DNA of 64,000 bases, taken from the IMG/VR virus record IMGVR_UViG_3300044957_001482, positions 1 through 64,000 of that record; one strand, 5' to 3'. Below, one piece after another: positions 26,707-41,308 of the stretch; position 1 is the stretch's first letter, and every line of letters begins with the position of its first letter. The notes under the pieces are model-generated. The model worked only from the letters and a program-made list of their open reading frames with translations. It did no database searches and was not told where the DNA came from. Origin of the DNA: a virus. Both the position numbers and the translations under genes were made by a program.

Positions 26707-27855
26707 ATGCAAACCCAAGAACTCATTGTAATCGGCAATCAACACAGAGAACAGCGTCAGTACGAGCAGGCACTGACCTGTTATGCACAGGCCTTTGCAC
26801 AGGATCGCAGATCAGCTGCGGCCTTTAACAACTACGGCAACGTGCTGCGAGAAATAGGGGAGCCAGGATCAGCCGTACCTTTTTTACAGCAGGCTCTGAC
26901 GCTGGAACCCAACAATGTCACTGCACAGTTCAATCTGGCTGTCACTCATCTTCTCATGGGCAATCTGCGCCAGGGATGGCCGGCCTACGAGGCCCGATGG
27001 AACTACGAACATCTAGCCGGAACCGAACCCAAGTTTGCACAGCCGCGATGGCGTGGTGAAGACCTCCAGGGCAAGACTGTGCTAATCGTAGGCGAGCAAG
27101 GCCACGGAGACAACATACAGTTTTCTCGTTTTGCCTACAATCTGCATGTCATGGGTGCACGAATAAAATTGCAGGTCACCGCGGGCCTGGTGCCCATGTT
27201 CCAAGGCAGTGCTGTGGTTGCCTGGGCTGGTACCTACACCGATGACCCGGGCGAGTTTGATGTTTGGGTGCCTGTCATGAGCATTCCCGGAATATTGGGT
27301 GTGACCTACGACAATCTGCCGCGGCCAGTCAGTTACATGTCTGCGGACCGTGAGTTGACCCAGAGATGGCAGGAGCGCCTGGGACCAAAAACTCGCATGC
27401 GTGTGGGTTTTTCCTGGTCCGGCCGTAGAGATTCCTGGCTGAACCAGCACAAGGGCATGCCTTTCCGAGTCATGCTAGATCTAATTGAGAAAAATCCTCA
27501 GTATGAGTGGACCAATCTACAGATCGACGCCACCGAAGAGGAAAGTGCTGCTCTGGCTGCAGCCGGTGTGAAACTGTATCCCGGTACCATACGCGGATTC
27601 CACGACACCGCTGCCTTGATCGCTCATCAAGATGTCATACTCAGTGTGGACACTGCGATCGCACACCTCGGTGGTGCGTTGGGTCGTCCCACCTGGGTGA
27701 TGTTGCAAAAGTTTGGAGTGGACTGGCGCTGGCTGTTGGATCGCGATGATTCGCCGTGGTATTCCGCCGCGAGACTGTTTCGGCAATCGGCATTTGATGA
27801 CTGGGCGTCAGTGACCAATCGGGTGCATCAGTACCTGTCGTGGTTCAAGATCTAG
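26707..27855 (+). CDS. TPR protein with GT9-like glycosyltransferase domain
   Basis: The 382-residue protein has about three tetratricopeptide repeats in residues 1-95 (QYEQALTCYAQAFAQDRRSA, AFNNYGNVLREIGEPGSAVP, AQFNLAVTHLLMGNLRQGWP). The segment AYEARWNYE then leads into a glycosyltransferase-family-9-like domain (KTVLIVGEQGHGDNIQFSRF, RVGFSWSGRRDS, VILSVDTAIAHLGGALGRPT). The ending DRDDSPWYSAARLFRQ is typical of bacterial TPR-GT proteins, mainly proteobacterial. It may glycosylate virion or host surface components. It has no Shine-Dalgarno sequence; a late box abuts the ATG. It abuts the convergent nuclease gene with no gap, and is likely of bacterial origin. Confidence 0.8.
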   Translation: MQTQELIVIGNQHREQRQYEQALTCYAQAFAQDRRSAAAFNNYGNVLREIGEPGSAVPFLQQALTLEPNNVTAQFNLAVTHLLMGNLRQGWPAYEARWNYEHLAGTEPKFAQPRWRGEDLQGKTVLIVGEQGHGDNIQFSRFAYNLHVMGARIKLQVTAGLVPMFQGSAVVAWAGTYTDDPGEFDVWVPVMSIPGILGVTYDNLPRPVSYMSADRELTQRWQERLGPKTRMRVGFSWSGRRDSWLNQHKGMPFRVMLDLIEKNPQYEWTNLQIDATEEESAALAAAGVKLYPGTIRGFHDTAALIAHQDVILSVDTAIAHLGGALGRPTWVMLQKFGVDWRWLLDRDDSPWYSAARLFRQSAFDDWASVTNRVHQYLSWFKI

Positions 27856-28302
27856 TTACCGGCACCAGCTCTGTTTGGTTTCGCCGTGGTACTCACGCGC
27901 CAGCCCTTGTTCGATTAGCATGGCACGCAGGCTGCGACCGTCCAACATGATGTCGCCCAGCACGCGTCCACCAAACTTGTCCCAACCATAGAGTACCACT
28001 CGTCGCTCCGTGCTCTGGGCCACGGCCTGTGTGGTAAACTTGGTAGCCAGTTGCCCACGTTGATCTTCGCTTGGGCACTGCGCACGGTGGCCTTTTTCCG
28101 GAGTGTCCACTCCGTAGATGCGAACTGCGAGTTCTGGCTTGAGTGGTGCTGGCAGGAATGGTGCTGAGATAATGATGGTATCGCCGTCAATCACACGCAG
28201 GACCTGTGCGTCATTTGTGGCTGAATTTTTGGGCTGCTTCTGCGCATAGGCTGAGCCCATCATTGCGAATACTGTAAACACTGTTGCTAAGATTGTTTTC
28301 AT
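27856..28302 (-). CDS. Secreted thermonuclease-like nuclease (SNase family)
   Basis: The 148-residue protein has a signal peptide (MKTILATVFTVFAMMGSAYA, cleavage after AYA). The mature part is a staphylococcal-nuclease domain: VIDGDTIII with metal-binding Asp39 and Asp41, then VRIYGVDTPEKG with Arg61 and Glu69, and FGGRVLGDI with Arg113. These correspond to the usual catalytic set. It would cut DNA or RNA in the periplasm or outside the cell. Its ATG overlaps the stop of a disrupted 49-codon reading frame (ATGA). A signal peptide on a phage nuclease is uncommon and could serve in exclusion of other DNA or in nucleotide scavenging. Confidence 0.85.
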   Translation of the reverse strand: MKTILATVFTVFAMMGSAYAQKQPKNSATNDAQVLRVIDGDTIIISAPFLPAPLKPELAVRIYGVDTPEKGHRAQCPSEDQRGQLATKFTTQAVAQSTERRVVLYGWDKFGGRVLGDIMLDGRSLRAMLIEQGLAREYHGETKQSWCR

Positions 28303-28445
28303 TTTGATTCCGTCTGGTTTGTGGGTTCTTCCCAGCCCAGTTTATATAACAAGTCACTGTTGGTACCGGTATAGGACACTGCCAGGGTCAAGGTGATGTT
28401 GCGCAGATATCAAGGGGTTACTTCAGTAGGTTTGGGTTTGACCAT
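28299..28445 (-). pseudogene. Small late gene interrupted by in-frame TGA
   Basis: From ATG 28445 the frame reads MVKPKPTEVTP, then TGA, then continues open as YLRNITLTLAVSYTGTNSDL to KLGWEEPTNQTESK and ends in a TGA that overlaps the nuclease ATG. The second half keeps frame and 4-nt coupling, so this looks like one 48-residue gene broken by a single base change. A CATAAATA late box lies 25 nt upstream. A sequence error is also possible. No function known. Confidence 0.5.
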
Positions 28446-28470
28446 GCGTTATCTCGGTGTTCTACGAAAT

Positions 28471-28478
28471 TATTTATG
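28471..28478 (-). promoter_or_regulatory. Late promoter box CATAAATA
   Basis: CATAAATA on the minus strand lies 25 nt before ATG 28445. It marks where phage-like sequence resumes after the GC-rich cytochrome segment. Confidence 0.55.
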
Positions 28479-29159
28479 AATTTTTGCAGACTCGCCCAGC
28501 TGATCGGTCAGGTCAAGCACACAAACACCTGTCCCGATTGCCGGTAGTAAGCCGCGCCAATGCCAATACCGGCCGCGTCGCCCATCTCGTCCGTTCTCGG
28601 CAGTTACCGTGCCTCTATGGATCGCCCCGATGGCAAACTGAGCATCGCCCACCGGACTTACTTGTTTTTCTCACATCGGGAGGCGCCAACCGGCAGGAGC
28701 GGCTTACTCGAACGACTTGACCTTGGTCGGAAATGCGCCGTCAGATCGACCCTTGAGGTAAGAGTAGAGCGCATCGATTTTTTCGGCACCGAGCGCGTCG
28801 TGCGGGGGCATGCCCCTTTCCGGCCGGCCTTTGGCGATCGTGGTCATCACCTCGTCCTTGGTCATCTTTTTGAGCGAATCAATCAGGGCTGGACCGACCA
28901 GGCCCTCCTGGTTGGCACCGTGGCAACGCTCGCAGGCCGCCGAGCGCCACGTTTGGAAACCCTTGAAGGTCTTGCTATCGACCAGCCCGTCCTTGACCGT
29001 GTAGGGGGCATCGTCGGCCAGGACCGGAGCGGCAAAGCCCAACAGCAGGGCAGTCAGAACAACGCGCTTCATCTAAACATCTCCTTCTTGACAATTTGGG
29101 TCGCTGAACAACATCGGAAGTTTAGATTGTGTCGGCACCCTTGTATACAACGCTGTCAC
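28479..29159 (-). other. GC-rich inserted segment carrying a cytochrome gene
   Basis: This segment of about 680 bp is visibly more GC-rich than the phage sequence on either side and is bounded by two phage late elements: the disrupted small gene ending at 29160 and the late box at 28471-28478. It contains the cytochrome gene. The 225 nt after that gene hold fragments of coding-like sequence on the minus strand (for example GDAAGIGIGAAYYRQSGQVF) broken by stop codons. I see no terminal repeats or transposase. Direct capture of a bacterial fragment is inferred. Confidence 0.5.
28704..29072 (-). CDS. Secreted class I c-type cytochrome, methanol-dehydrogenase-partner-like
   Basis: The 122-residue protein has a signal peptide (MKRVVLTALLLGFAAPVLAD, cleavage after VLA). 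It has one haem c site, CERCH (C47, C50, H51), and a likely axial Met at M88 in RGMPPHD. The context YTVKDGLVDSKTFKGFQTW, HGANQEGLVGPALIDSLKK and YSYLKGRSDGA resembles the short cytochromes that accept electrons from PQQ alcohol dehydrogenases (XoxG/cytochrome c-L type) in methylotrophs. That subfamily is a tentative call. AAGGAG precedes the ATG. It is complete and GC-rich, unlike phage neighbours, so recent acquisition from a bacterium is likely. A c-type cytochrome is very unusual in a lytic phage. Confidence 0.85.
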   Translation of the reverse strand: MKRVVLTALLLGFAAPVLADDAPYTVKDGLVDSKTFKGFQTWRSAACERCHGANQEGLVGPALIDSLKKMTKDEVMTTIAKGRPERGMPPHDALGAEKIDALYSYLKGRSDGAFPTKVKSFE

Positions 29160-29334
29160 TCAGAACCCGTTTAGCGGGCCACTGCCAAATTTACCACTAT
29201 TCTCCGGGTCGAGCATTACCGTTGTAGTTGGCAATGGTTTCCCGCGCATTGTCTTTCATCACAGCGCGGCTGATACCAGTGATGTTGTCGTAGGGTGGTT
29301 TGGTGCCACCAAACCACCTTTCCTTATACTTCAT
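29160..29334 (-). pseudogene. Small late phage gene with likely frameshift and internal palindrome
   Basis: ATG 29334 opens MKYKERWFGGTKPPYDNITG and then ISRAVMKDNARETIANYNGN, ending at TAG 29197 after 45 residues. The N-terminal sequence resembles the start of phage fibre or structural proteins. Shifting one frame near the TAG continues as ENSGKFGSGPLNGF and stops at 29160, so the gene probably suffered a one-base indel. A 25-nt palindrome lies at 29294-29318, within codons 6-14. The start region (ATG AAG TAT AAG GAA AG) is duplicated in tandem as a 17-bp repeat. An exact TATAAATA late box lies 37 nt upstream. Confidence 0.5.
29294..29318. repeat. 25-nt perfect palindrome
   Basis: Arms GGTGGTTTGGTG and CACCAAACCACC flank a single central base. 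It lies inside the small late gene and would form a strong hairpin near the 5' end of its message. Confidence 0.85.
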
Positions 29335-29351
29335 CTTTCCTTATACTTCAT
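29318..29351 (-). repeat. 17-bp tandem duplication at a start codon
   Basis: ATGAAGTATAAGGAAAG occurs twice in a row on the minus strand, starting at 29351 and 29334. The first copy gives only a six-codon ORF (MKYKER, stop), and its AAGGAAAG then serves as the ribosome site of the second copy's ATG. Confidence 0.8.
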
Positions 29352-29364
29352 ACAGCAATACCTA

Positions 29365-30567
29365 CTATCTATATTTATATTTTGTCGCCTCTTCACTACC
29401 ACCTGTGGCATTACCTTTGGAGTAACTGTGGGCGCCAACACCGGCCAACACACCATCTTTGACCACTAAGTACTCATTGCGAATAGGGCGGTGTTCAAAA
29501 TAACATTCCAATACTTCTCGCACACCTGCCGCATAACGAGTCTGAGCACTCAAACTGGTTCCAGAAATATGTGGAGTCATGCCATGATTTGGCATAGTGC
29601 GCCATGGATGGTTTTGGGGTGCTGGTTGTGGAAACCAGACATCTCCTGCGTATCCTGCTAAATGACCACTTTCTAAAGCTCGGGCGATCGCATCACGATC
29701 ACAGATTTTACCTCGGGCAGTATTGACAATGTAACTGCCTCGTTTCATTTTTGCTATCATTTCTTCATCGAACAAGTGTTCTGTTTCTGGATGCAACGGA
29801 CAATTGATCGTAACAATGTCGACTGCCTCGACCAGACTTTCTACACTATCATGCCAGGTCAAGCTCAATTCTTGTTCTACCCGTGTCGGCAAACGATGAC
29901 GATCAAAATAATGTAAATGCACATCAAATGCTTTTAATAACTTCAATGCTCTTAATCCAATACGACCTGCGGCAACAGTGCCCACATGCATACCTTCAAT
30001 ATCATAGCTTTTGACAACACAATCTGCGATATTCCATCCGCCCTCGATGACTTGTTTGTAACTAGGAATATAATTACGCACTAAACTCAACATCTGCATT
30101 ACAATATGTTCAGCTACCGAATTACTATTACAGTAGGTGATTTCTGCCACTGTGATGCCACGCTCCATCGCAGCTTGTAGATCTACGTGATCGGATCCAA
30201 TACCTGCTGTAAGAGCCATTTTAAGTTTTGGCGCACTAGCGATCCGTTCGGCAGTTAAATATGCCGGCCAAAAAGGTTGGCTGATTACTATTTCTGCATC
30301 TGGCAAATGTCGATCAAATTCTGAATCTGCACCGTCTTTGTCTGATGTGACAACCAACTCATGTCCCATACTTTCTAAAAATTTTCTTAGACCCAATTCG
30401 CCAGTTACGCTGCCTAATAATGTGCCAGCCTGAAAATCCACTTGATGTGGATTAGGAACTGTTTGTCCATCTGGATAATGCGTTATTCTAGGAATATTAT
30501 TTCTTGCATAGCTGGTTGGATAGCCGTTTACAGGATCATCATATAAAACACAAAGCACTTTTGACAT
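29365..30567 (-). CDS. fdh: NAD-dependent formate dehydrogenase
   Basis: The 400-residue protein is a complete member of the bacterial NAD-dependent formate dehydrogenase family (D-2-hydroxyacid dehydrogenase superfamily), the same length as the Pseudomonas sp. 101 enzyme. It oxidises formate to CO2 and makes NADH. Family residues are all present, one position later: SQPFWP (F99), YCNSNS (N147), VGTVAAGRIG for NAD, YFDRHRLP (D222, NAD preference), NTARGKICD (R285), WFPQPAPQNHPW (Q314) and MTPHISGTSLSAQ (H333). The C-terminal SYSKGNATGGSEEATKY is conserved; the final codons coincide with a TATAAATA late box. AGGAGAG precedes the ATG. It follows damaged isc genes. An intact FDH in a T4-like phage suggests a methylotroph-directed auxiliary metabolic gene. 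Confidence 0.95.
   Translation of the reverse strand: MSKVLCVLYDDPVNGYPTSYARNNIPRITHYPDGQTVPNPHQVDFQAGTLLGSVTGELGLRKFLESMGHELVVTSDKDGADSEFDRHLPDAEIVISQPFWPAYLTAERIASAPKLKMALTAGIGSDHVDLQAAMERGITVAEITYCNSNSVAEHIVMQMLSLVRNYIPSYKQVIEGGWNIADCVVKSYDIEGMHVGTVAAGRIGLRALKLLKAFDVHLHYFDRHRLPTRVEQELSLTWHDSVESLVEAVDIVTINCPLHPETEHLFDEEMIAKMKRGSYIVNTARGKICDRDAIARALESGHLAGYAGDVWFPQPAPQNHPWRTMPNHGMTPHISGTSLSAQTRYAAGVREVLECYFEHRPIRNEYLVVKDGVLAGVGAHSYSKGNATGGSEEATKYKYR
29372..29379 (-). promoter_or_regulatory. Consensus late promoter TATAAATA inside the fdh 3' end
   Basis: An exact TATAAATA on the minus strand encodes part of the last FDH residues (KYKY). It lies 37 nt before ATG 29334. It probably belonged to the small late gene before fdh was inserted. 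Confidence 0.7.
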
Positions 30568-30689
30568 ATAAATTTCTCTCCTAGGTATATGTAATATATC
30601 TGCTGCCCAAATAAGACTTTATCTCTTGCGAGATGCGCTTTCACACAGGTCTCAAGTATATTTTACATTATTTGTTAACAGGATGCAAA
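30568..30689 (-). other. Leader region of fdh with GCAA-loop hairpin
   Basis: This 122-nt gap between iscA and fdh is AT-rich. It holds a short hairpin, ATCTC-GCAA-GAGAT, at about 30631-30644, and an AGGAGAG ribosome site. I see no NNTAAATA late box here and no convincing -35/-10 pair, so how fdh is transcribed is unclear. Confidence 0.4.
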
Positions 30690-31008
30690 TTAAACTGAAA
30701 AACTACTGCCACATCCGCATGTTGTTTTTTTCATTTGAATTTGAACTTGAACTAACAAATTGTGAGCCTTGTAGTTTATCTGTTTTGTAATCTATAGTTG
30801 CTCTATCAAAATACTGCATACTTAATGAATCTACTAGTAATTTATTGATAATAAAATCATCTTCATTCTTTTCATCTTCAATGGTAAATACATGGTTAAA
30901 TCCTGCACACCCGCCGCCAGAAATAAATGCTCTTACATATCTTGTGGTGGGTTCATCAAGTAAAATTTCTTTAATTTTTTTCTGTGCATCTTGGATTATT
31001 GTTAACAT
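30690..31008 (-). pseudogene. iscA: A-type Fe-S carrier (IscA/ErpA-like), frameshifted at A7
   Basis: From ATG 31008 the frame gives an IscA-family protein (MLTIIQDAQKKIKEILLDEP; AFISGGGCAGFNHVFTIEDE with the first cluster Cys, C34; LLVDSLSMQYFDRATIDYK). As sequenced it stops at 30703 with a scrambled tail. Removing one A from a run of seven (minus strand, 30725-30731) restores NEKTTCGCGSSFSV, stop 30690, which is the conserved CGC motif needed to bind Fe-S. The gene is thus broken, mis-sequenced, or expressed by slippage. It follows the iscU remnant by 9 nt in the usual bacterial order. It is AT-rich compared with phage neighbours. Confidence 0.85.
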
Positions 31009-31017
31009 ATTTAGTTC

Positions 31018-31341
31018 CTAACTACAAACACATTTTAAATGATAGTCTTTGACTGCTGCCTTAATTGTATCTTCGGCAAGAATACTGCAATGTATTTTTA
31101 CAGGCGGCAATGATAACTCTTCCGCAATGTGAGTATTCTTTATGCTGACAGCTTCATTGAGTGTTTTACCTTTAATTCATCTGATTACAAGACTTGAACT
31201 GGCAATAGCACTACTGCAGCTGTAAGTCTTGAATTTTGTATCTTCAATAATACCTTGATCGTTAACTTTAATTTGTAGTTTCATTACATCGCCGCAGGCA
31301 GGTGCACCTACCATACCTGTTCCTACAGTTATTTTACCCAA
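31018..31341 (-). pseudogene. iscU: Fe-S scaffold IscU remnant, 5'-truncated, TGA at a conserved Trp
   Basis: The minus-strand frame reads TVGTGMVGAPACGDVMKLQI, VNDQGIIEDTKFKTYSCSSA, IASSSLVIR, then TGA at 31177-31179, then IKGKTLNEAVSIKNTHIAEE, LSLPPVKIHCSILAEDTIK, ending at TAG 31018. This is IscU with its three cluster cysteines and LPPVK chaperone motif, but the TGA stands where the family has Trp (SLV..W.KGK). The first 35 or so residues are missing: the sequence starts at the capsid gene's terminator. I infer a decayed capture of a bacterial iscUA pair. Readthrough cannot be excluded. Confidence 0.85.
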
Positions 31342-31342
31342 C

Positions 31343-31368
31343 AAAAAAGCACCCGAAGGTGCTTTTTT
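31343..31368 (-). terminator. Intrinsic terminator after the capsid gene
   Basis: Minus strand AAAAAAGCACC-TTCG-GGTGCTTTTTT: a 5-bp GC-containing stem extended by A/T pairs, a UUCG tetraloop and a T6 tract, 26 nt after the gp23 stop. A classic terminator for the head operon; it also marks the junction with the isc fragment. Confidence 0.9.
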
Positions 31369-31394
31369 GATACTTCGTAAAACTGATTTTTTGA

Positions 31395-32591
31395 TCAGCT
31401 GAACGAGAGATTGCTCACTGCGATTTCTCCCACATAGTCGCCAGCATTGCCGAACGACGAAGCAGTGTTGGTCAGTTCGATGTAGCCATAGCGAGTCATG
31501 AAGCTCACGACCGGTTCAAACGTGGTTGGATCCAGCACAACACCCGAGCTCATCAGCGGGATGTACGGGCAGTAGAACGCAGGAGCGTCTGCTTCCGACG
31601 AACCCTTGTAGCCGACCAGAACCGGAGTGGTGTCTGCGGCATACGAGTCAACGAACACACGCATAGCGCCATTGAGCGTACCAACGAACTTGGTGTTAGT
31701 CGGGGCTTCAAAGACGCCTTCGGTGGTGCGAGCAAAGGCCGAGGTTGTAGCCGATTGCAGCACGGTGAGAGCAGCACTTGAAACCACTGCATAGTTACCA
31801 GCACCGCGACGTGTGCGCTGAGCGATCAAGTTGGCAACACGGTTGATCAACACAGCCAGAGCAGCATGTTCGTCGCCAACGAATGTGGCAGTGCCCGAAA
31901 CAGTGGCTTGGTTGTAAGTGAACTCGGTGCTGGCCAGGCTGCGCAGACTCAAGAGGATTTCTTGGTCGATTTCAGCGGTGATTTCTTGGGCCAGAGCAGC
32001 CATGATTTCGGCTTCAACGTCGATGCCGTGCATGGCTTGAGCATCTTGGGCCGATTCAAATGTCCAACGTGCCTGCAGTTTGCGAGTTTTGGCTTCAACT
32101 GCTTGCTTGAGGATTTGAACCGAAATCTGCTTACCACCAGTGCCTTCCATGGTCGCTGTGTTGCCACCGGTATAGGCAGTGGCAGTGCTCACGTCCTTGG
32201 GCACTGTTGAGTATGCCGTGGCAATGGTGAACGGGCTCAGTGCTTCCTGGCCTGCTGTTACCGAAGTGGCAGCAGCCGACGAGTCAGTTAACGATTGAGC
32301 ATAACGCACACGCAGAGTATGTATCTGACCAACCGGGCCGGTCATGGGCTGCACACCAACCAATTCATTGGCGATCACAGTGGGCATGACCCGACGGATC
32401 ACTGGCAGGATCACACGATTGAGTGTGGCGATGTTGCCAGAAGCGGTTGAACCAGACGAGGCATTTTCTTTGAGGTACTTGCGAGTATTCTCAAGGATAA
32501 CCTTCATGCTGTTGCGCCGGGTTCCGTTCAGACCTTCAAGAAGGGCCTCTTTGGTCTCTTCCCACCGGCTTTCTAATAATTCTTGTGACAT
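31395..32591 (-). CDS. gp23: Major capsid protein (gp23)
   Basis: The 398-residue protein has the T4-like capsid pattern: an N-terminal helical segment (ESRWEETKEALLEGLNGTRR, SMKVILENTRKYLKENAS), VILPVIRRVMPTVIANELVG, QPMTGPVGQIHTLRVRYA, and the C-terminal FYCPYIPLMSSGVVLDPTTF and SFMTRYGYIELTN. It forms the hexamers of the head shell. It is shorter than T4 gp23 (521), as in aquatic relatives. gp21 would cleave the N-terminal part. A CAGGAGAC ribosome site precedes the ATG, and a strong terminator follows. Confidence 0.95.
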   Translation of the reverse strand: MSQELLESRWEETKEALLEGLNGTRRNSMKVILENTRKYLKENASSGSTASGNIATLNRVILPVIRRVMPTVIANELVGVQPMTGPVGQIHTLRVRYAQSLTDSSAAATSVTAGQEALSPFTIATAYSTVPKDVSTATAYTGGNTATMEGTGGKQISVQILKQAVEAKTRKLQARWTFESAQDAQAMHGIDVEAEIMAALAQEITAEIDQEILLSLRSLASTEFTYNQATVSGTATFVGDEHAALAVLINRVANLIAQRTRRGAGNYAVVSSAALTVLQSATTSAFARTTEGVFEAPTNTKFVGTLNGAMRVFVDSYAADTTPVLVGYKGSSEADAPAFYCPYIPLMSSGVVLDPTTFEPVVSFMTRYGYIELTNTASSFGNAGDYVGEIAVSNLSFS

Positions 32592-32614
32592 TTAAGTCTC
32601 CTGTTTTTAAAAAA

Positions 32615-33709
32615 TTAAAGCCCGGCCAGACGTTTGAGATCGATAACGTTGCTGGCTGCATTGCTATCTTCGGGCTGGATCGGAACTTCCTTATCACCAG
32701 TCACTGCTGTGATAGATTCTGTGATCACCCGACTAGCTTTCGCAGAACGATCTTCCAACACTGCTGGTAGATACTTTTCAAACGCGCTCTTCAAACGTGA
32801 AGTTTGCACGCTTTCTAGCAAATTACGCATGACTTCGGCTTTTTCACGGTTGAGCGGAGCCAGTAACTCGGCCATGAGATCACGGCGTTCGTTGTGTTCG
32901 CTTATCATGCGTATTTCGCGGTCTTTTGACTCAACAAGGACTTTGGCCTTCTCGCTGAGTTCGATGGCTTCTGCCAATCTGCGATTCTTGTCCGACAGCA
33001 GCGAGTTCAGGCGGCGCACTTCTGCATTCTCATTGAGGTGAGTGGCACCGAATTCTGCTGCGTATGCTTCAAAAATCCTACGTCCAAAGTTGTTCTCGCG
33101 AGCAACACGGATGTCTTCTTGCAGTTGGGTCAGTTCGGCCGTGAGATGACGGCTGACTGCTTGGCTCATCTTTTTAGCACTTTCCTTGACGAAACGTGCC
33201 TTGAGATCCTGCAACTTGCCGCGTGCTTCGCGTATCAAGCGAACCTTGGTTTCGACTACATCACGCTTGTCGGCAGCAAATTCTTGTATCTCACGAGCCA
33301 ATGCATGTACCACGAAGTTTTCCAGCTTCTGGACACCTTCGGTGTGCATGCGGCGGTCTTGGCGCAGTTCGGTGATTTCTTCGGCCAATTTTTTCACTAG
33401 GAAGTCATTGAACTTGGTCGCCGACTCCATCATCTTGGTTTGGAAACGCACACGGTCTTGGGCCAGCGCACGACGTTCGTCGGCGACGGCTTGTACTTCT
33501 GCTTGCAGACCTTCAGTAACCATACGATCTAGGGCTTCAACCATCACTGTCTTGTCATGCTCGTAGCGTTGTGCGAATTCCTCACGGAGCTCGCTGCGTA
33601 CCTGTTCACGGGTCTCGTTGAGCTTGGATTCCCAGGCCTCATTGATTTCCCGACCGATTTCTTCGGTGATCAGGTTACTGTCAAGCAATGGTTTAATAGC
33701 ATCAAACAT
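32615..33709 (-). CDS. gp22: Prohead core scaffold protein (gp22)
   Basis: This 364-residue protein is almost wholly charged and helical (ESKLNETREQVRSELREEFA, VRFQTKMMESATKFNDFLVK, LTAELTQLQEDIRVARENNF), as expected of the coiled-coil scaffold that fills the prohead. It lies between gp21 and gp23 in the standard T4 order. gp21 digests gp22 during maturation. The C-terminal ASNVIDLKRLAGL is conserved in the family. It is longer than T4 gp22 (269). Confidence 0.9.
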   Translation of the reverse strand: MFDAIKPLLDSNLITEEIGREINEAWESKLNETREQVRSELREEFAQRYEHDKTVMVEALDRMVTEGLQAEVQAVADERRALAQDRVRFQTKMMESATKFNDFLVKKLAEEITELRQDRRMHTEGVQKLENFVVHALAREIQEFAADKRDVVETKVRLIREARGKLQDLKARFVKESAKKMSQAVSRHLTAELTQLQEDIRVARENNFGRRIFEAYAAEFGATHLNENAEVRRLNSLLSDKNRRLAEAIELSEKAKVLVESKDREIRMISEHNERRDLMAELLAPLNREKAEVMRNLLESVQTSRLKSAFEKYLPAVLEDRSAKASRVITESITAVTGDKEVPIQPEDSNAASNVIDLKRLAGL

Positions 33710-33721
33710 GCCTGCTTCTCC

Positions 33722-34366
33722 TTAGATTTTGAGATCTCTGATGAGGCGCTTTAGTTCCTCGGCCAGATATCTCCGTACCTTGTCGCCCTCACCTGCTTCC
33801 TGTGCCATCTCAAGTATGCGATGTCCGTGTCTCATGTTGATGAGACCTTCGTAGATCGCTTGAGGATAGGCATTGGGAGCACTGGGTTGTGCGACCACAT
33901 CTATAGTGACTATTTCAAAGTCACTTACATGTCCTGTTCTATCGTCAACGTTGCCCGACCCGCGGCTGCTAACACCAAGTTTTACCCCTGACTGCAACAG
34001 TGTGCGTATCAGTTCACCCATGGGTGTGGGCAGTATCTTGAGTTTGCCACAACCGGCATTGCCGTCCATCCACATGCCTTCTACCGAGTGACACACACGA
34101 TCTAGGTTGATCTTGAGGTCATCAGGGTGATCCACTTCGCCCAGCACCGAGTTGCCATCGCGTATCTGTTCATTGATGGTTTCTACAGCCTTGAGTATTT
34201 CGTGGCGCGGGTAGATGCGTTCGTTGGCGTTGCGCTTGTCACCTTCGATACAGATGCCCTTGAGATAAAGGTTTTTTCCGCCTTTACCCGTGGCATCATC
34301 TTCGGTGATTACCTCGATCCGGGCCTGGTTAAAGGTTAGATCTTCTCTGAGGTATCGTGCGCTCAT
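33722..34366 (-). CDS. gp21: Prohead maturation protease (gp21)
   Basis: The 214-residue serine protease has the gp21/herpesvirus-assemblin-type catalytic residues: GEVDHPDDLKINL (His80) and VKLGVSSRGSG (Ser133/134). YLKGICIEGDKRNANERIYP near residue 35 is also typical. It cleaves gp22, gp23 and other core proteins before DNA packaging. Its length equals T4 gp21 (212). It lies 6 nt after the core protein gene and 12 nt before gp22. Confidence 0.93.
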   Translation of the reverse strand: MSARYLREDLTFNQARIEVITEDDATGKGGKNLYLKGICIEGDKRNANERIYPRHEILKAVETINEQIRDGNSVLGEVDHPDDLKINLDRVCHSVEGMWMDGNAGCGKLKILPTPMGELIRTLLQSGVKLGVSSRGSGNVDDRTGHVSDFEIVTIDVVAQPSAPNAYPQAIYEGLINMRHGHRILEMAQEAGEGDKVRRYLAEELKRLIRDLKI

Positions 34367-34372
34367 TGCTGA

Positions 34373-35176
34373 TTAGCCTCTGGTACCACCGGGCAGCGGG
34401 CTCTTGACGTTGACGCCAGTGGCCTGATCCAGATGTGGTTTGACTGCTGGGCTGGGCTTCTGTGTGCCCTGTGCAGGTGTATTACCAACCTTGCCAATGA
34501 GATCCTTGGTGGTAGGGGCCGGACGACCTTGTGCAGTGTCGCCAGTCATCCTGACCGGATCTGCTATGGCACCACGCGCACCCGAATTGTTGGCGTTTGT
34601 GCTCTTCTTGTTGACCGAGCCTTCCTCCGAAGTAACAGGCTTGGGTGCGGCCTTGAGGCTGACTGCTTCCATGGCTGGCTTGGGTTCCATGTTCATTTCT
34701 TTGGTTTCGTCGGCGTCGCCACCTTTGTCGGGGTCCATCATGTCTTCGTTGCCTTGGTTGTTGCCCATGAGTTCTTCAAACTCGGCCATGAGCTCTTCCA
34801 GTTTGTCTTCCAGATCCATGACTCGGTCTTCGAGTTCTTCGTCACTGCCCATGTCATCGTGATGATCTACATCATCTTCGCCCATTTCAAACTCTTCTTC
34901 TTCTTCTTCTTCTTCTTCCTCGTCTACGCATGAGGCTTCGTCTACGCATGAGGCTTCCATGTGCATGTCGTTTTCTTCGTCCATTTCGACATCGTCGATC
35001 AGGTCGTCAGCAGCATCACCGCCCATGGCTTCGTCCAGTTCTTCTTCGGCTTCTTCAGCCATGATATTTTCATAAATCTCGCGGCTCTTTTCTACCACGA
35101 TGTCGTGGAAAAGTTCGCGAGCCTTTTGTTCTTCATCGTTGATCACGTACTCGATCAACTGTTCAAATCTGTTCAT
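34373..35176 (-). CDS. Acidic prohead core protein
   Basis: The 267-residue product is strongly acidic: residues 36-150 contain long Asp/Glu runs, including ten consecutive Glu, and a tandem EASCVDEASCVDE duplication. The C-terminal 100 residues are Pro/Lys/Thr-rich. N-terminal MNRFEQLIEYVINDEEQKA matches the core proteins found between portal and protease in T4-like phages (gp67/gp68 position). It probably forms part of the internal core and is degraded by gp21. GAA-triplet repeats near 34890-34917 are prone to length change. Confidence 0.75.
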   Translation of the reverse strand: MNRFEQLIEYVINDEEQKARELFHDIVVEKSREIYENIMAEEAEEELDEAMGGDAADDLIDDVEMDEENDMHMEASCVDEASCVDEEEEEEEEEEFEMGEDDVDHHDDMGSDEELEDRVMDLEDKLEELMAEFEELMGNNQGNEDMMDPDKGGDADETKEMNMEPKPAMEAVSLKAAPKPVTSEEGSVNKKSTNANNSGARGAIADPVRMTGDTAQGRPAPTTKDLIGKVGNTPAQGTQKPSPAVKPHLDQATGVNVKSPLPGGTRG

Positions 35177-35206
35177 GATAGAGGCTCCTATAGGAAAGTG
35201 TGTTTT

Positions 35207-35214
35207 TATTTACA
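35207..35214 (-). promoter_or_regulatory. Late promoter box TGTAAATA for the prohead operon
   Basis: TGTAAATA on the minus strand lies 30 nt before ATG 35176, with TATAGGAG between. It would drive the core-gp21-gp22-gp23 genes up to the terminator at 31343-31368. The rest of the gap 35177-35280 shows only a small TTGCA...TGCAA inverted repeat. Confidence 0.55.
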
Positions 35215-35280
35215 TAACTTGTTGAAACTCATTGTAGTTGACGTGGAAAATGGTGAAAATTGCAGATTTATTGCAATGAG

Positions 35281-35499
35281 TTAGATCGCAGACGCTGCTG
35301 GCGGTGCGTACTGGGTACGAATTTTTTTGAGTTTTTCGCTGTGTTCAAACTTGCGTACATCGTTCATGCGACGCAGTTTGGTTAACTGACGCAGAGTGAG
35401 TCGAGTTTTTCTTAGGTCATGTTTGGTAATCTGGCTGTTGTCTTGGCCAAGGTCTTGATATGATTCCGGCTCACGGTTCCAGATTTCAGTTAGCAACAT
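35281..35499 (-). CDS. Small conserved head-cassette protein (gp67-like position)
   Basis: The 72-residue basic protein (MLLTEIWNREPESYQDLGQD, KHDLRKTRLTLRQLTKLRRM) is conserved between portal and core genes in aquatic T4-like phages. The position corresponds to T4 gp67/gp68 core proteins, though T4 gp67 is acidic at its C-terminus and this protein is basic. It may help start prohead core assembly. No ribosome site is seen; a GATAAATA box abuts the ATG. Confidence 0.65.
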   Translation of the reverse strand: MLLTEIWNREPESYQDLGQDNSQITKHDLRKTRLTLRQLTKLRRMNDVRKFEHSEKLKKIRTQYAPPAASAI

Positions 35500-35504
35500 G
35501 CGAT

Positions 35505-35512
35505 TATTTATC
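35505..35512 (-). promoter_or_regulatory. Late promoter box GATAAATA abutting an ATG
   Basis: GATAAATA on the minus strand ends 5 nt before ATG 35499 and overlaps the gp20 stop codon. T4 geometry predicts transcription starting at the ATG. Confidence 0.45.
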
Positions 35513-37304
35513 CGCCTGTCGGGATCGTCGGTGTGGACGCTGCCGGGAGTACTCCGCCCGGTGCACCTGGTGCAGCCGGCGAGCCTGGCACTTCACCGGC
35601 TCCACCTTCGATTCCGGCCAATTCTTCACCTGCAGCGATATCGCTTTCGATGCCGCCCGGTGTAATTCCGATGGTGCGCAGATCTTTCCCGGCTGCGGCT
35701 GCCAGTTCGGCCTGATCGCGTTCTTCTTGCCACAGTCGCTCGTTTTCGGAGATTTCGTCCTTGCTGAGACCCAGGAATCGTTCTAACAGAAATCGCTTGG
35801 ACAGATAAGGAAACGGGTCGAGTCTTGAAAATGCATCTATGCGTGTGATATCCAGTTCGGCCTGCCGATAACTGGCGAAATTCTGTGGCGGACAAAATGC
35901 CAGGGTAAACAGTCCCGAATCGATGTTGAATCCACGCCATTTCAAGAACATCTTGAATTCGTCGTCCAGTTTTTGTGCAATTGCTGTCTGCAGGCGTTCG
36001 CAATATTGGTTGAATCGATATTCCTGTATCAGCGCAGTGCCCACACGTCCATCGTTAAGTGCGCGGTCAGATTCGTCGGGTCCTGTGGGTAAATAGCTGC
36101 TGGGCACTCTGAGCCCGCGAGCCATTTTGTTGTTGAAGTATCTGAGGTCGTCAATTTCTCCTAGATTCTGACCGCCAGGCAAGGTTTCCACCGATGACCC
36201 GCGACCGTCTTGTCCCTGTGGGAAAAAGTAATCTTCGTTGATCGAAAGTGGATTGTAACTGGCATCCATCATGTTGGCACCGCCGCCGGTTACCGTGGGT
36301 ATGCGACGTTGATGCATTTCGTTTTTCACCCGTTCCACAAACTGCATGGCCAGGTGACTGGGCATGTTGCCCACGTCAATCTTGAAAATCCTGCGCTCGG
36401 GTGCACGGCTTACGCGATAGATCAGTATGGCGTCTTCCAGCAGCTCTTTCTGCTTGAATACTTTGTAGATGTTTTCCAAGATCGAACGGCCAAAGGGCCA
36501 GAACACATCCAATCCCTCATTGAGACTGAGGTGCACCACGTGCTTGGCATCGATGCAGGTTTCATTCATGGCCGTCATGAAGCGTGCATTGCCCACACCT
36601 CCGCCCACACCACCACTGGGCATGGTATAGTTGGCCGATCCCGATATGGTCCCTGTCACCGGATTGGTCATGTAGTCCGTGGTGGTCTTTTGTGCGATGG
36701 ACAGACTTTGAAAATTGGGGTTGATGTCGCGAATCACATACTGCTCAGGACGTTTGCCTTCGCTTTCGTTGACAATGATACGCATGACCTTTGATGTGTC
36801 CACCCAATACATTTCAAAGGTCTCAGGATCTCGCACAAAAACCTGGTCGCCGTACTTGATGGTATTGCGGAACAGTTTGAAGATACGTTGGTCAAACTGA
36901 TTGAGCTTGGTCCATTGTTGTAGTTGTTTGCGAATGATCTGAATTTCGTGATCAGTGGGATCGTCGCGAAACCTGATTTCAAACGGCGTGTCGTTGTCTT
37001 TGTTGGTCTGTGTAGAAAACTCTGCAACAATGTCCAGACATGCATTGATCTCGGAATCCATGTCCATGTTTTCGTACTGATTGTATCGTTCGATACGATT
37101 GGGGTGACCCGAATACACTTCGGGCAATCTGGATGCATAGTTTCGAAACACAAAATCCGCAGGCATGCCCATGCTGCCATCGTTGCGTCTGTAGTTGGGC
37201 AATCCGTATTGATTGTGTCCAGATATCGGACTTATCACACCCGATGTATCTGCGACTTTGAAATACTTACGCCATGACTTGGATTGATTTTCTCGATTAG
37301 CCAT
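35508..37304 (-). CDS. gp20: Portal vertex protein (gp20)
   Basis: The 598-residue protein matches T4-family portals: FRNYASRLPEVYSGHPNRIE, YENMDMDSEINACLDIVAEF, LKWRGFNIDSGLFTLAF, RVSRAPERRIFKIDVGNMPS and KMARGLRVPSSYLPTGPDES. Twelve copies form the ring through which gp17 packages DNA and onto which gp13 docks. It is longer than T4 gp20 (524) because of a Gly/Pro/Ala-rich C-terminal extension and an insert near residue 225. The ATG overlaps the upstream endonuclease by 8 nt. Confidence 0.95.
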   Translation of the reverse strand: MANRENQSKSWRKYFKVADTSGVISPISGHNQYGLPNYRRNDGSMGMPADFVFRNYASRLPEVYSGHPNRIERYNQYENMDMDSEINACLDIVAEFSTQTNKDNDTPFEIRFRDDPTDHEIQIIRKQLQQWTKLNQFDQRIFKLFRNTIKYGDQVFVRDPETFEMYWVDTSKVMRIIVNESEGKRPEQYVIRDINPNFQSLSIAQKTTTDYMTNPVTGTISGSANYTMPSGGVGGGVGNARFMTAMNETCIDAKHVVHLSLNEGLDVFWPFGRSILENIYKVFKQKELLEDAILIYRVSRAPERRIFKIDVGNMPSHLAMQFVERVKNEMHQRRIPTVTGGGANMMDASYNPLSINEDYFFPQGQDGRGSSVETLPGGQNLGEIDDLRYFNNKMARGLRVPSSYLPTGPDESDRALNDGRVGTALIQEYRFNQYCERLQTAIAQKLDDEFKMFLKWRGFNIDSGLFTLAFCPPQNFASYRQAELDITRIDAFSRLDPFPYLSKRFLLERFLGLSKDEISENERLWQEERDQAELAAAAGKDLRTIGITPGGIESDIAAGEELAGIEGGAGEVPGSPAAPGAPGGVLPAASTPTIPTGG

Positions 37305-37812
37305 TATCTTGCTCCATCAATTTTGCTGCTTTTTTTGCGGCAAAATATTTTTTTAATGTGTCAGAAATTTTTTTGGCTCGAAACGGATCGTAAGGTCTTC
37401 CAAGATTGGCTAGTCTGACTTTTTCTCTATGGTCTGCAGTCACAGTTCCTTTATAATTCTTTAGCTGCTCGGGGGTTCGTTTTTTTCCTTTGTTTCCTTC
37501 AGAAATCTTTCTTTTAGTTTCTTCAGAATGCTTCCAACCAACTGCGCACGCCCATTGATTGATTTTGATGTTATCTAGCAAGCCGCCATCAATTTTTCTT
37601 TTATACCTAGAAATTAACTCGCCCTCGAGTTTTTTTGCCTCATCGTTTGTTAATCCGTCCTGAACAATTACCCTGCGTTCAAGAGGAAGTAGTTGGGTTC
37701 GTGTGTGCGGTCGATGCAACCGTCTGCCAAATCCTTTTCCAATGTAGTACGGTTGACTGTCTTCATTTGCATATTGATATACATAGAATGTACGAGAATC
37801 GTGTTCTGCCAT
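37297..37812 (-). CDS. GIY-YIG homing endonuclease upstream of gp20
   Basis: The 171-residue protein has RTFYVYQYANEDSQPYYIGK (GIY-YIG block), the catalytic-type Arg in GFGRRLHRPH, and Glu in AKKLEGELISRYKRK. A NUMOD3-type DNA-binding segment follows (HSEETKRKISEGNKGKKRTP). It overlaps the gp20 start by 8 nt and directly follows the tape-measure-like gene. A GTTAAATA box sits 7 nt before its ATG. Its codon use is AT-rich. It is a free-standing homing endonuclease, the second GIY-YIG at a structural gene boundary. Confidence 0.85.
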   Translation of the reverse strand: MAEHDSRTFYVYQYANEDSQPYYIGKGFGRRLHRPHTRTQLLPLERRVIVQDGLTNDEAKKLEGELISRYKRKIDGGLLDNIKINQWACAVGWKHSEETKRKISEGNKGKKRTPEQLKNYKGTVTADHREKVRLANLGRPYDPFRAKKISDTLKKYFAAKKAAKLMEQDNG

Positions 37813-37819
37813 GGTAGTT

Positions 37820-37827
37820 TATTTAAC
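37820..37827 (-). promoter_or_regulatory. Late-like box GTTAAATA before the endonuclease/gp20 unit
   Basis: GTTAAATA on the minus strand ends 7 nt before ATG 37812. If used, it would also transcribe gp20. Confidence 0.35.
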
Positions 37828-37828
37828 C

Positions 37829-40800
37829 CTAGTTTGCTGCTGCTTGGGCCATTTTCTGGTTGGCATCAGCGGTTCTGCTTTGACTTGTTGCTATCATCTG
37901 CAGTGTTTCCAGTATACGCCGCTGTGTCCCATCGTCTTTGTTTTGCAATGAATTGACCACTTGTTGCAGGGTAGATTTGAATTCTTGTGTTACCTGTTGT
38001 ATGGCTGCGGATTGATCAACATTGGATTGTTGTATGACATCCTTGATAGCAGTGCCCAGTATTTCACCTATGTCAGGGCCAAACATTTTGCTACCGGCCT
38101 GAACACCGGCAAAGTCAAAATTCATCAACATGCCCGACTTGACAATCTCTTTCCAGGTGTTAGGGTCGGTAATAGTCTGTGTGGCGGAATCGTAGGCTCC
38201 CAGCTGCCCGGCAATTTTCTTCAGGGCTTCTATGTCGGTGGTGATTGGACCCTGGTTGAACCCGGTATAGTCGTCATACTGCCCGAGCAGTCTAGCCTGG
38301 TCGACGACCAGGCCCGGGTCGATCAAACCATTTTGCTGATTGAATCCAAATGCATTGGCAGCAACATAGTCGTCCAGGCTACGAGAGTAGCGGGAGATCA
38401 AACCATTTTGCTGATTGAATCCAAATGCATTGGCAGCAACATAGTCGTCCAGGCTACGAGAGTAGCGGGAGATCAAACCATTTTGCTGATTGAATCCAAA
38501 TGCATTTCTGTCCGCTGCAGCAGCATAGGCAGCAACATAGTCGTCCAGGCTACGAGAGTAACGGGAGATTGCTGCGAGATCTGTGCTTATAGTACCAGTG
38601 TCATTCACATTCCGAATGAGTTTGACTTTGACGTTATCATCGGTGCCCCGACGAGTGATATTTGAATTAACCATGCTTCGGAGGTCATGCAAGGTCTTTT
38701 CCAGCTTCGGCGAAAGACTGACCGGAATAGTGTCGCCATCGGGCAGTGGAACCACTGCCTCAGGGCCGGCTTCGCCAGCAATGGCTATGCCATCGGTCAC
38801 ACCGCCTTTGGCCATAGCAGGTATTTCCACATGAAAGTGACCGCCGGTGGAGTGGCGACTGGGGTTGGTATATTCATCGCGAACATATGACGCACCATTG
38901 CTTTTTAGCCACTCGACGATTTTCTCTGACTGTTCCGGAGTGGGAGGTTTTTGCAAAACAAAATCCAAGGCCGCACCTTTGTTGTGTGCACTCCCTGGGA
39001 CTTCTTTTTGATGGTAGTGATCGAAAAAGCCAGAAAAATACCCAAAACCTGGCACCCCTTCCTGGATGTTTTGGGCCAAATTGATCAATCGCCGATCCAG
39101 CTGAGCCCCGGCCTGTTGGACATCACCGCGCTTGACACGCAGACCGAAATTTTGGAGATCGCCCACTGTGAAGCTTTGTTTTTGCGCGGGTCCCAGTGGA
39201 GCAGCAGTGCTTTTGTTGGCGGCTGCGGCTGCCGCAGGTGCAGCACCAGGTGCTGCACCAGGTGCTGCACCTCCAAACATCGAAGTCGGAGCAGGTAGAA
39301 TATCAGCAGGTGCCACGTAACCCCCTGGGCCAGCGCCTGGCACTCGCACACTTTGGCTAGAACTCTGCCATTGTTTACGGAAATCGTCTTCGATCTTACG
39401 CTTCTGGTCCAGGCTCAGTTCAACATCTTTCTTGAACAGTTTGCCAATTACCCCGTAGGCCCGGGTATTGGCTTCGGCCTGTGCATCACCGACAGCACTG
39501 CGCAGACCCGATTCGTACATTTCTTGTGCTTGTTTGATACCACGCAGTTTCTGCTCTTCGTCAAAGAGGGTTTGTTCTAATTTGCGTTCATTCGCAGTCT
39601 TTCCTATGCCCAGGATCCGACCAAGCAAATTGGCCTGGCTCTTGTTACGCTCGTCTTGCAGCTGTTTTCTAAGATTATCGACTTTGCTCCGGGCCGCTGC
39701 TTCTTGTTCGCTCTTGGGTTCTGTCTCGGTAACTCCAAACATCTCGTTGAGCTTTTTTGTGCTAATGGCCACCGCCTCGGCAAAGGCCAGCGATGCCGCA
39801 GTGGCTGCAGGAAGACCTTTGGCTGACACGAAGCGTTCTACAGCTTCGTTGGCACGGATCTGCGTGGCACGCAGTTTGGCTTGATCGGTCAACATCTTGT
39901 CGGCTTTTTGACCCTCGGCCTCGGCCGATTTCTTGCGGTCAGCCTCGATTTTTTCTAGGATCTCGACAATGTCTTTCTCGGCCAGCCCGGCCAATTTCAA
40001 ATCACCGGCCAGATCGCCAAAGACCTGATTGTAAGTACCGATCATGCCCATGGTAGTGCCCAGGCTGCGTGCAGTTTGGCCGTGGGCACGTGCGATGCGT
40101 TGTGCTCCTTCGGCAGCACTTATCTGACCAGCTATGATCTGTTGTGCCACGCGCATGCTTTCACCATTCGTGCCCATCAATGACTTTTGTGCTTTTTCGG
40201 TCTGTATGTAGCCGGTCTGTATGTCAGCAAAGCCCTGAGCTGCTTCGGCATTCAGACTCTGCAGTATCAGGAATGTGTCTTCCAAGGCCTTGGCCTCTTT
40301 GAATTTCCCTTGCTGGCGCAGGCTTTCCAACTGTGCAGCAAAGCGTTCCTGGCTGCGCACCTGTTCGCGTGCTTTTTCCTGTTCTTGGCGTGACAGGCCA
40401 GTGAGTTTGGTCAGTGCATCCTGTTCTTCGAGATATCGTCGAGCCCCCTGGGCCAGGCGGTTGAGATCATCAGCACTGCGCTCAGCACTGCGCACAGTGT
40501 AGTCACCGGCCACGCGTTGCTGTTTGACATAGTTGGCCATGATCTCGGCGACGTCGGTCATGTCGTAACCTAGTCTGAAAAAATATTCTCGCGATCCTGC
40601 CAGAGCCAGGCTCATCTTGGCCAACTGTTGTCGTCCGGTGACCACGCCGCCGCCAAACAGTGTGAGTTCAGTGGCATTCCGTGTTATGACCGATATCAGG
40701 CCTTCCAGTTCACTTGATTGCGCTGACACTGCGATACCAAACCGCTTGGCATCATCAAACACTCCAGTCAGGCCGTCACTGGCAGCAGCACCCGATTGGG

Positions 40801-41308
40801 CCAGGTCCGAATATCCTTTGTACAGTCTATCGGACTGCTCGTTGGCTGCTTTCATCAGATCCGTAAAGCCCTGGGCAGCCAAGGCCGCGCCGGCAACGCC
40901 CGCGGTCATGGCCACTGCTCCGACATTGACCTTGGCCACATTGATTCCCAATGCACTCAACACTCCGCCCAGAGGTTTCAAAGCACGTCCCAGGGGAATC
41001 AACAGTCCTAGCACTGTGATCATACCAATGATACCGGTTGCGGCTTGATCTATGGAGTCATTGAATGCAGCAGCGCCCTTGGCACCGTTATTCATGGCCG
41101 TGGCCGCGGTGAGCACTGACCCTGCGAGATCCAACAGTGCATTCACGGCTTTTGCACCGGCTATTTCCAGCTGCTTGGATGTCTGTGTGCTGCCCACACT
41201 GAGAGCGCGTGCAGTCTGATCGGTCACATAGCCCAGTGTGCGCAGTTCTTCATTGATCTGTGCCAGCAGTCTTGCACTTTCTTCCAGCTCTTGATTTGGA
41301 TCGGCCAT
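37829..41308 (-). CDS. Tape-measure-like tail protein with M15-type peptidase domain
   Basis: The 1159-residue protein has a helical N-terminus, a hydrophobic region at about 60-150 (IIGMITVLGLLIPLGRALKP), long coiled-coil stretches to 650, then a peptidase-like domain at 730-830 with AHNKGAALDFVL (His, Asp) and GGHFHVEIP (HxH near residue 823), as in M15-type peptidoglycan peptidases. AKGGVTDGIAIAGEAGPEAV follows, a classic tape-measure motif. It probably sets tail length and helps breach the cell wall during DNA entry. Residues 911-996 hold three 25-residue repeats (ISRYSRSLDDYVAANAFGF). An Ala/Pro linker is at about 670-690. A TATAAATA box precedes it. Confidence 0.8.
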   Translation of the reverse strand: MADPNQELEESARLLAQINEELRTLGYVTDQTARALSVGSTQTSKQLEIAGAKAVNALLDLAGSVLTAATAMNNGAKGAAAFNDSIDQAATGIIGMITVLGLLIPLGRALKPLGGVLSALGINVAKVNVGAVAMTAGVAGAALAAQGFTDLMKAANEQSDRLYKGYSDLAQSGAAASDGLTGVFDDAKRFGIAVSAQSSELEGLISVITRNATELTLFGGGVVTGRQQLAKMSLALAGSREYFFRLGYDMTDVAEIMANYVKQQRVAGDYTVRSAERSADDLNRLAQGARRYLEEQDALTKLTGLSRQEQEKAREQVRSQERFAAQLESLRQQGKFKEAKALEDTFLILQSLNAEAAQGFADIQTGYIQTEKAQKSLMGTNGESMRVAQQIIAGQISAAEGAQRIARAHGQTARSLGTTMGMIGTYNQVFGDLAGDLKLAGLAEKDIVEILEKIEADRKKSAEAEGQKADKMLTDQAKLRATQIRANEAVERFVSAKGLPAATAASLAFAEAVAISTKKLNEMFGVTETEPKSEQEAAARSKVDNLRKQLQDERNKSQANLLGRILGIGKTANERKLEQTLFDEEQKLRGIKQAQEMYESGLRSAVGDAQAEANTRAYGVIGKLFKKDVELSLDQKRKIEDDFRKQWQSSSQSVRVPGAGPGGYVAPADILPAPTSMFGGAAPGAAPGAAPAAAAAANKSTAAPLGPAQKQSFTVGDLQNFGLRVKRGDVQQAGAQLDRRLINLAQNIQEGVPGFGYFSGFFDHYHQKEVPGSAHNKGAALDFVLQKPPTPEQSEKIVEWLKSNGASYVRDEYTNPSRHSTGGHFHVEIPAMAKGGVTDGIAIAGEAGPEAVVPLPDGDTIPVSLSPKLEKTLHDLRSMVNSNITRRGTDDNVKVKLIRNVNDTGTISTDLAAISRYSRSLDDYVAAYAAAADRNAFGFNQQNGLISRYSRSLDDYVAANAFGFNQQNGLISRYSRSLDDYVAANAFGFNQQNGLIDPGLVVDQARLLGQYDDYTGFNQGPITTDIEALKKIAGQLGAYDSATQTITDPNTWKEIVKSGMLMNFDFAGVQAGSKMFGPDIGEILGTAIKDVIQQSNVDQSAAIQQVTQEFKSTLQQVVNSLQNKDDGTQRRILETLQMIATSQSRTADANQKMAQAAAN
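38321..38573 (-). repeat. 75-bp tandem repeats in the tape-measure-like gene
   Basis: Copies start at 38321, 38396 and 38471. The first two are identical over 75 bp; the third carries a 21-bp insertion and a few changes. Each encodes 25 residues containing RYSRSLDDYVA and NAFGFNQQNGL. A 19-nt palindrome (38295-38313) lies 7 bp from the array edge. Confidence 0.9.

Follow-up and report, generated by a model that had tools for sequence, protein, structure and literature searches.

A predicted NAD-dependent formate dehydrogenase gene in a partly decayed iron-sulfur gene cassette of a jumbo phage

The window, i.e., the whole stretch of 64,000 nucleotides analyzed here, is part of a virus record of 98,178 bases. 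It contains fdh, a gene for an NAD-dependent formate dehydrogenase, which is open on the minus strand, while the plus strand across the same positions is full of stops. In the direction of transcription, gp23 is followed by a hairpin, an iscU relic, an iscA-like gene, fdh and a cytochrome gene (Table 1). Upstream of fdh on the same strand lie gp23, one unassigned gene, the prohead protease gene and, further on, the gp20 portal gene. The preliminary description of this DNA had placed fdh between phage late genes, and its position in a phage, beside head genes, was confirmed. No clear promoter of its own was found for fdh (8 sigma-70-like sites, compared with 6.2 in shuffled sequences), its 136-nt leader folded no better than shuffled sequences (z -0.08), and Rfam gave no match up to E 0.5 between positions 27800 and 32000.

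Table 1. Features of the fdh region of the window and of related fdh loci.
Feature	Sequence	Position	Strand	Evidence or remark
Staphylococcal-nuclease-like protein, signal-peptide-like N-terminus by eye	Window	27856..28302	minus	SNase 40.3 bits; next minus-strand gene after cytochrome
c-type cytochrome, CxxCH, signal-peptide-like N-terminus by eye	Window	28704..29072	minus	122 aa, GC3 0.76; PF13442 (Cytochrome_CBB3) 42.4 bits
fdh, NAD-dependent formate dehydrogenase, intact	Window	29365..30567	minus	400 aa from ATG; profile, PDB and residue evidence
TATAAATA motif inside the 3' end of fdh, upstream of cytochrome	Window	29372..29379	minus	Motif scan
iscA/ErpA-like gene, C-terminus frameshifted, CGC motif out of frame	Window	30703..31008	minus	Fe-S_biosyn 28.5 bits; L003 alignment
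iscU relic, one internal TGA, N-terminus lost	Window	31027..31335	minus	NifU_N PF01592, 130.2 bits, profile positions 21-125 of 127
Terminator-like hairpin AAAAAAGCACC-TTCG-GGTGCTTTTTT, between gp23 and cassette	Window	31343..31368	minus	Read from sequence; absent from consensus scan list
gp23 major capsid protein	Window	31395..32591	minus	Pfam Gp23, 323 bits; 66% to PA5oct-like phages
Prohead protease	Window	33722-34366	minus	Pfam Peptidase_S77
gp20 portal	Window	35508-37304	minus	Portal_T4
Permuted beta-type tmRNA at fdh end	L003	8153-8632
Permuted beta-type tmRNA at fdh end	L080	494-848
Permuted beta-type tmRNA at fdh end	L009	8963-9335
Permuted beta-type tmRNA at fdh end	L010	4332-4704
Permuted beta-type tmRNA at fdh end	L011	11158-11530
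Peptide deformylase near fdh	L008	11898-12329
Peptide deformylase near fdh	L012	17348-17857
Peptide deformylase near fdh	Five other fdh loci

The fdh product scored 693.1 bits against NCBIfam NF005750 (cut-off of 329), with residues 1-385 aligned to positions 1-385 of the 386 in the profile. PDB entry 2gsd aligned with residues 1-398 (E 1.8e-218), and 3fn4, 2go1 and 2nac covered nearly the same span with E < 1e-200. A chance match to formate dehydrogenase is excluded by these profile and PDB scores. F99, I123, N147, D222, R285, Q314, H333 and S335 were all present in the translation. I123, N147, R285, Q314, H333 and S335 are what we take to be the formate-site and catalytic residues of NAD-dependent formate dehydrogenase, and the pair D222-R223, contained in the YFDRHR motif, presumably determines the preference for NAD. 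In a comparison of the window protein with 160 viral and bacterial relatives (near-identical rows retained, four shorter fragments dropped beforehand), seven of the eight positions were invariant, with D222 in 161 of 161 rows, and position 123 was I in 160 rows and V in one. The claim of a complete enzyme with its listed family residues kept was thus upheld: a curated family score over the whole length, the catalytic and formate-site residues and the NAD-preference residues were found together. Judged by its family, the gene product is predicted to be a metal-free NAD-dependent formate dehydrogenase of full length; the enzyme itself is ordinary, and what is unusual is its carrier. It shares family, full length, catalytic and NAD-binding residues with the bacterial enzymes 2gsd and 2nac (presumably from Moraxella C2 and Pseudomonas 101, respectively), but differs from them in being phage-encoded and in having phage genes as its nearest copies.

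Two other viral records cover the locus. L002 (IMG 3300044953) matched window positions 29059-40642 at 99.8-100%, comprising the portal gene, gp23, the whole of fdh and the very start of the cytochrome gene. G001 (IMG 3300044997; 215,330 bases) matched positions 1-29723 at 99.99%, comprising roughly the 3'-terminal 30% of fdh, the cytochrome gene and everything beyond. The two overlap by 665 identical bases. Thus, each fdh junction was seen in another viral record, and the objection of an assembly join at the fdh borders was answered at contig level. G001 and the part of the window's record beyond the start of G001 together comprise 283,785 bases; hence, the genome has at least 283.8 kb and the phage is a jumbo phage.

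Genes of the T4 head and packaging type (gp23-, gp20-, gp21- and gp17-type) were found, and a Terminase_6N domain was present in G001. Late transcription also appears to be of the T4 type, with a gp55-like late sigma homologue (29%) and putative late promoters: the motif TATAAATA, which we take to be T4 late-promoter-like, occurred five times in the window, compared with 0.66 expected. The capsid protein was nearest to that of PA5oct-like Pseudomonas phages (66%), which have a similar genome size (~286 kb), whereas the portal protein was closer to that of Sinorhizobium phage Phosso (53%), followed by Agrobacterium phage Atu_ph07 (51%) and PA5oct-like phages (48.5%). The initial label of a T4-like phage therefore fits as regards the head genes and the late sigma factor, but this is a jumbo phage with a PA5oct-like capsid and no close relative of T4. 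Domains of NAD synthase, superoxide dismutase, ribonucleotide reductase and ThyX were also found in the genome. By clustering and motifs, G001 carries an NAD-synthase-like gene (126926-127798) and a third iscA-like gene adjacent to one that resembles superoxide dismutase (123746-124773).

The cassette of iscU, iscA and fdh was found in the same order, with all three genes intact, in L003, an 8.9-kb contig with PhoH and a phage exonuclease homologue. L003 and window positions 29346-31329 are 94% identical in DNA, and no other match of more than 150 bases was found between L003 and the window. The damaged stretch 30703-31394 is letter-for-letter identical in L002; thus, the lesions in iscU and iscA are not the error of a single assembly. 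Between the window and L003, fdh differs by 62 nucleotides and 8 amino acids (dN 0.017, dS 0.201, dN/dS 0.08; a pairwise value for both branches jointly). When the fdh substitutions were placed at random in 2000 trials, a mean of 39.7 amino-acid changes resulted, with a minimum of 24 and never 8 or fewer, and a stop was created in 89% of the trials. In comparison with L080 (537 usable bases), fdh showed two window-specific sites, both in third position. The first 84 codons of iscA gave dN 0.054 and dS 0.095, and iscU gave dN 0.039 and dS 0.190 (stop codon excluded). Taken alone, the substitution pattern of iscU points to no more than mild relaxation; that the gene is decaying is evident from its missing N-terminus and its internal stop.

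An intact second iscU/iscA pair is present elsewhere in the genome of the window phage (G001 165841-166541). Since this pair is intact, iscU and iscA of the cassette are broken and fdh is clean, fdh looks selectively retained, and the evidence that the phage keeps it is good. As judged from the window-L003 pair, fdh qualifies as an auxiliary metabolic gene, i.e., a host-type metabolic gene in a phage genome that is kept by selection. L006, L007, L032 and L034 have, ahead of iscU-fdh, the same five genes that G001 has ahead of its intact iscU. In these four loci, fdh follows iscU at the old place, whereas in the window phage it is absent there and stands at gp23 instead. The simplest history would be that fdh was lost from, or absent at, the old place and that a second cassette then arrived from a low-GC phage. 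The base composition agrees with a low-GC origin of the cassette, as GC3 rises from 0.32 in fdh to 0.58 in gp23 and 0.76 in the cytochrome gene, and the overall GC of L003 is 0.37. Sharing of the cassette with a low-GC phage is shown by DNA identity and composition; the direction of transfer proposed here would be towards the jumbo phage.

A scan of viral contigs for fdh gave 92 stretches, of which 85 were confirmed and 80 kept. The DNA retrieved for the 80 loci was compared with the structural, replication and late-transcription genes of Pelagibacter phage HTVC008M (E 1e-6 or better); at least one such T4-core homologue was found in 55 loci (including L002, the window phage itself), and 22 of these had a structural gene. 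For some of the 55, the evidence is weaker, as their sole match was the clamp-loader ATPase (gp44), at 32-36%. In the other 25, L003-L011 among them, none of the tested T4-core genes was found. HTVC008M has no annotated fdh. The insertion points of fdh vary: in one group it is flanked by the small and large terminase genes, and in others it is near gp32, gp41, gp44 or nrdA. Intact iscU was next to fdh in L006, L007, L032, L033 and L034, of which L032 and L034 share the same gene string, and one gene away in L003. As a further difference from the PA5oct-like phages, no FDH above 47% identity was found among 50,697 phage records, of which 47 matched. The best matches (47%) were in OR845000.1 and OR849882.1, unannotated 'Staphylococcus phage' records whose sister records contain other dehydrogenases; they probably represent bacterial contamination of the phage collection.

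A database search and a tree, as proposed with the preliminary description, identified phage L003 as the nearest relative and placed viral and bacterial rows intermixed. The tree comprised 40 rows: each 93% cluster was represented once, L003 and L107 were retained in addition, and the L107 duplicate was omitted. The window and L003 were sisters (support 100/100) within a clade of nine rows (100/99), six viral and three bacterial (two Actinomycetota and one Methylotenera MAG). Another 25 rows formed a second clade (100/99), in which 15 viral rows were joined by SAR11, SAR86 and Rhodobiaceae. The virus label required five changes on the tree, three of them forced by starred branches; therefore, phages and bacteria exchanged fdh several times. 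Six bacterial copies (L104-L108 and L111) appear to lie in chromosomes, as their flanking translations read like gyrase, rho and similar proteins. A near-identical bacterial fdh, which the preliminary description had named as counter-evidence if from the same sample and of differing coverage, was not found: the nearest bacterial copies, from Actinomycetota and Methylotenera MAGs, reached at most 86% identity (best 80 of 523).

The initial statement that no T4-like phage with this enzyme had been described proved too strong, as relatives are common in viral contigs and formate dehydrogenase was named, with a suggested energy role, among the genes unique to a putatively deep (SAR11) pelagimyophage (PMC7029224). 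Both cases concern a formate dehydrogenase gene of an uncultured T4-like myophage that is read as an energy gene; the passage concerned in PMC7029224 is brief, cites a molybdenum enzyme and is silent on sequence type, cassette, selection and distribution. Viral iscU and A-type carriers are described as auxiliary metabolic genes of environmental viral genomes in PMC5332604, whose relevant sections do not mention formate, whereas 6 of the 80 loci found here have an intact iscU either adjacent to fdh or separated from it by a single gene. According to the passages concerned, a viral gene labelled fwdH was reported as formate dehydrogenase (PMC13394424), the viral enrichment of fdnI refers to a different enzyme (PMC4022391), and PMC12753301, PMC3686209 and PMC6081815 deal with host genes rather than viral ones; in the text available for the T4-type methylophage of PMC9004378, the word formate is absent. 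Among CC-licensed PMC papers, no title or abstract was found on an iscU-fdh cassette or on a phage FDH beside a cytochrome. In our reading, phage fdh is a real, little-noticed auxiliary metabolic gene with relatives in many uncultured T4-like viruses that have hardly been described.

The cytochrome encoded downstream of fdh scored below the cut-offs for XoxG/cytochrome cL (TIGR03872: 22.3 versus 147.8 bits; TIGR03874: 43.3 versus 161.75 bits), and this assignment was rejected. No relatives of it were found in phage records or in a set of four bacterial genomes, and among 11 pattern stretches of viral contigs the only one with the cytochrome belonged to the same phage. Of 300 genomes from the order of the Methylotenera MAG, presumably Burkholderiales, 120 showed some match, with three full copies (75-81% identical) and one split over two contigs. 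The four cytochrome-bearing genomes (G063, G108, G148 and G013) are drafts of 1.8-2.1 Mb that encode PQQ methanol/ethanol-type dehydrogenases and molybdenum formate dehydrogenase above the family cut-offs; NAD-FDH was not detected in these drafts, which yielded 31-34% paralogues only. A true NAD-FDH (66-84%) was present in 5 of the 300 genomes. Since one relative of 61% identity (G155) adjoins a PQQ dehydrogenase gene, the phage cytochrome may work in the manner of XoxG/cytochrome cL, as a methanol dehydrogenase partner. Based on few genes, i.e., the cytochrome gene and a beta-type permuted tmRNA in G001 (48131-48519), a Burkholderiales host is likely. Other methanol-pathway genes of the phage were absent among the matches listed, which covered 175 of 219 ORFs of at least 140 aa (8 more crossed stretch borders), and pmoC (PF04896, methane monooxygenase) gave no match in six viral records, nor in the controls. 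The stretches flanking the cytochrome gene (28303-28703 and 29073-29364) have no assigned minus-strand gene and are perhaps remains of phage genes.

Taken from sequence comparisons, the fdh of the window is probably a functional and selectively maintained auxiliary metabolic gene that was acquired via the iscU-iscA-fdh cassette and would supply NADH. The jumbo phage would have acquired the cassette from a low-GC phage, with the redundant Fe-S genes decaying and fdh being kept. The single-gene, cofactor-free enzyme, whose activity is predicted from its homology-based identity, would oxidize host formate to CO2 and reduce NAD+. The NADH would enter the host respiratory chain, yielding ATP, and provide reductant for the synthesis of nucleotides (indirectly deoxynucleotides) and virions. 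Unlike the formate dehydrogenase of the likely hosts, the phage enzyme would require no molybdenum enzyme or cofactor assembly, and the adjacent, supposedly periplasmic cytochrome may pass electrons towards a terminal oxidase. The supply of energy or reductant during infection, as suggested in the preliminary description, is thus plausible. We infer the expression of fdh, its benefit to the phage, the host and the role of the cytochrome. More tentatively, and with some doubt, these genes might form a C1-respiration kit for methylotroph-like Burkholderiales, in which the FDH bypassing molybdenum FDH, the cytochrome, the Fe-S genes, NAD synthase and superoxide dismutase would carry electrons from formate to oxygen, the iscU-fdh pair being a transferable cassette that passes between unrelated phages. 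Photosynthesis genes are a known feature of cyanophages. If the enzyme is active, many phages would carry the last step of one-carbon oxidation, obtaining NADH from formate without molybdenum, and phage fdh would be the heterotroph counterpart to the cyanophage genes. With two redundant genes rotting while fdh stays clean, the locus offers a natural experiment by which the benefit to the phage can be tested directly.

GTP cyclohydrolase I and peptide deformylase both release formate. The FDH might thus recycle formate from the phage's own enzymes, either from GTP cyclohydrolase I, in the formation of deazaguanine/queuosine precursors, or from peptide deformylase, during massive protein synthesis. 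GTP cyclohydrolase I was indeed found in two of nine fdh-bearing records searched (G001, i.e., the window phage, and G006) and peptide deformylase in three (G004, G006 and G008); the latter was also found by clustering in the fetched DNA of 7 of the 80 fdh loci, with both motifs in six. However, no deformylase was detected in the window phage (G000 and G001), and five of the nine records, most of them fragments and corresponding to four of eight phages since G000 and G001 are one, had neither gene. In our judgement, the formate yield would be small compared with the host C1 flux, and we regard disposal of formate as an unlikely role of fdh.

It could also be argued that fdh was merely brought in with the cassette by hot-spot recombination and is of no use to the phage yet. 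The foreign composition of the cassette, the breakage of both its other genes and the mosaic locus, in which the high-GC3 cytochrome gene is nearest to bacterial genes, would fit such a passenger. Yet fdh carries no lesions beside two decaying neighbours, its dN/dS for the window-L003 pair is low (0.08), and it recurs in many phages at several places, which makes a useless passenger quite improbable. The joining of fdh to the phage contig by an assembly artefact or by bacterial contamination is very improbable. G001 and L078-L081 start inside fdh, and such frequent assembler breaks are a sign of ambiguity, but they are also expected if several phages share the gene. Against an artefact, both junctions were reproduced by L002 and G001, no bacterial genome exceeded 86% identity among the best 80 of 523, and the cassette or the gene occurs in other phage surroundings in L003 and L080. 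Retention of fdh as an auxiliary metabolic gene is therefore the reading that we prefer.

A permuted tmRNA match overlapped or followed the fdh end in five of eight fdh loci scanned (Table 1); three of these, L009-L011, look like one phage. In the window, no more than some 20 bases of the L003 sequence remain after the fdh stop, and the sequence there is without a tmRNA match. Phage tmRNAs are known from Bacillus phage G and mycobacteriophages, as noted in the relevant part of PMC4131195. Positions 38396-38473 of the window mark a repeat region within the gene for a 1159-aa protein (37829-41308), where L002 is about 96 bases longer. Positions 1-165, at the start of the record, are a repeat with further, partly diverged copies in G001 at 29739-30479, and this repeat probably ended the contig.
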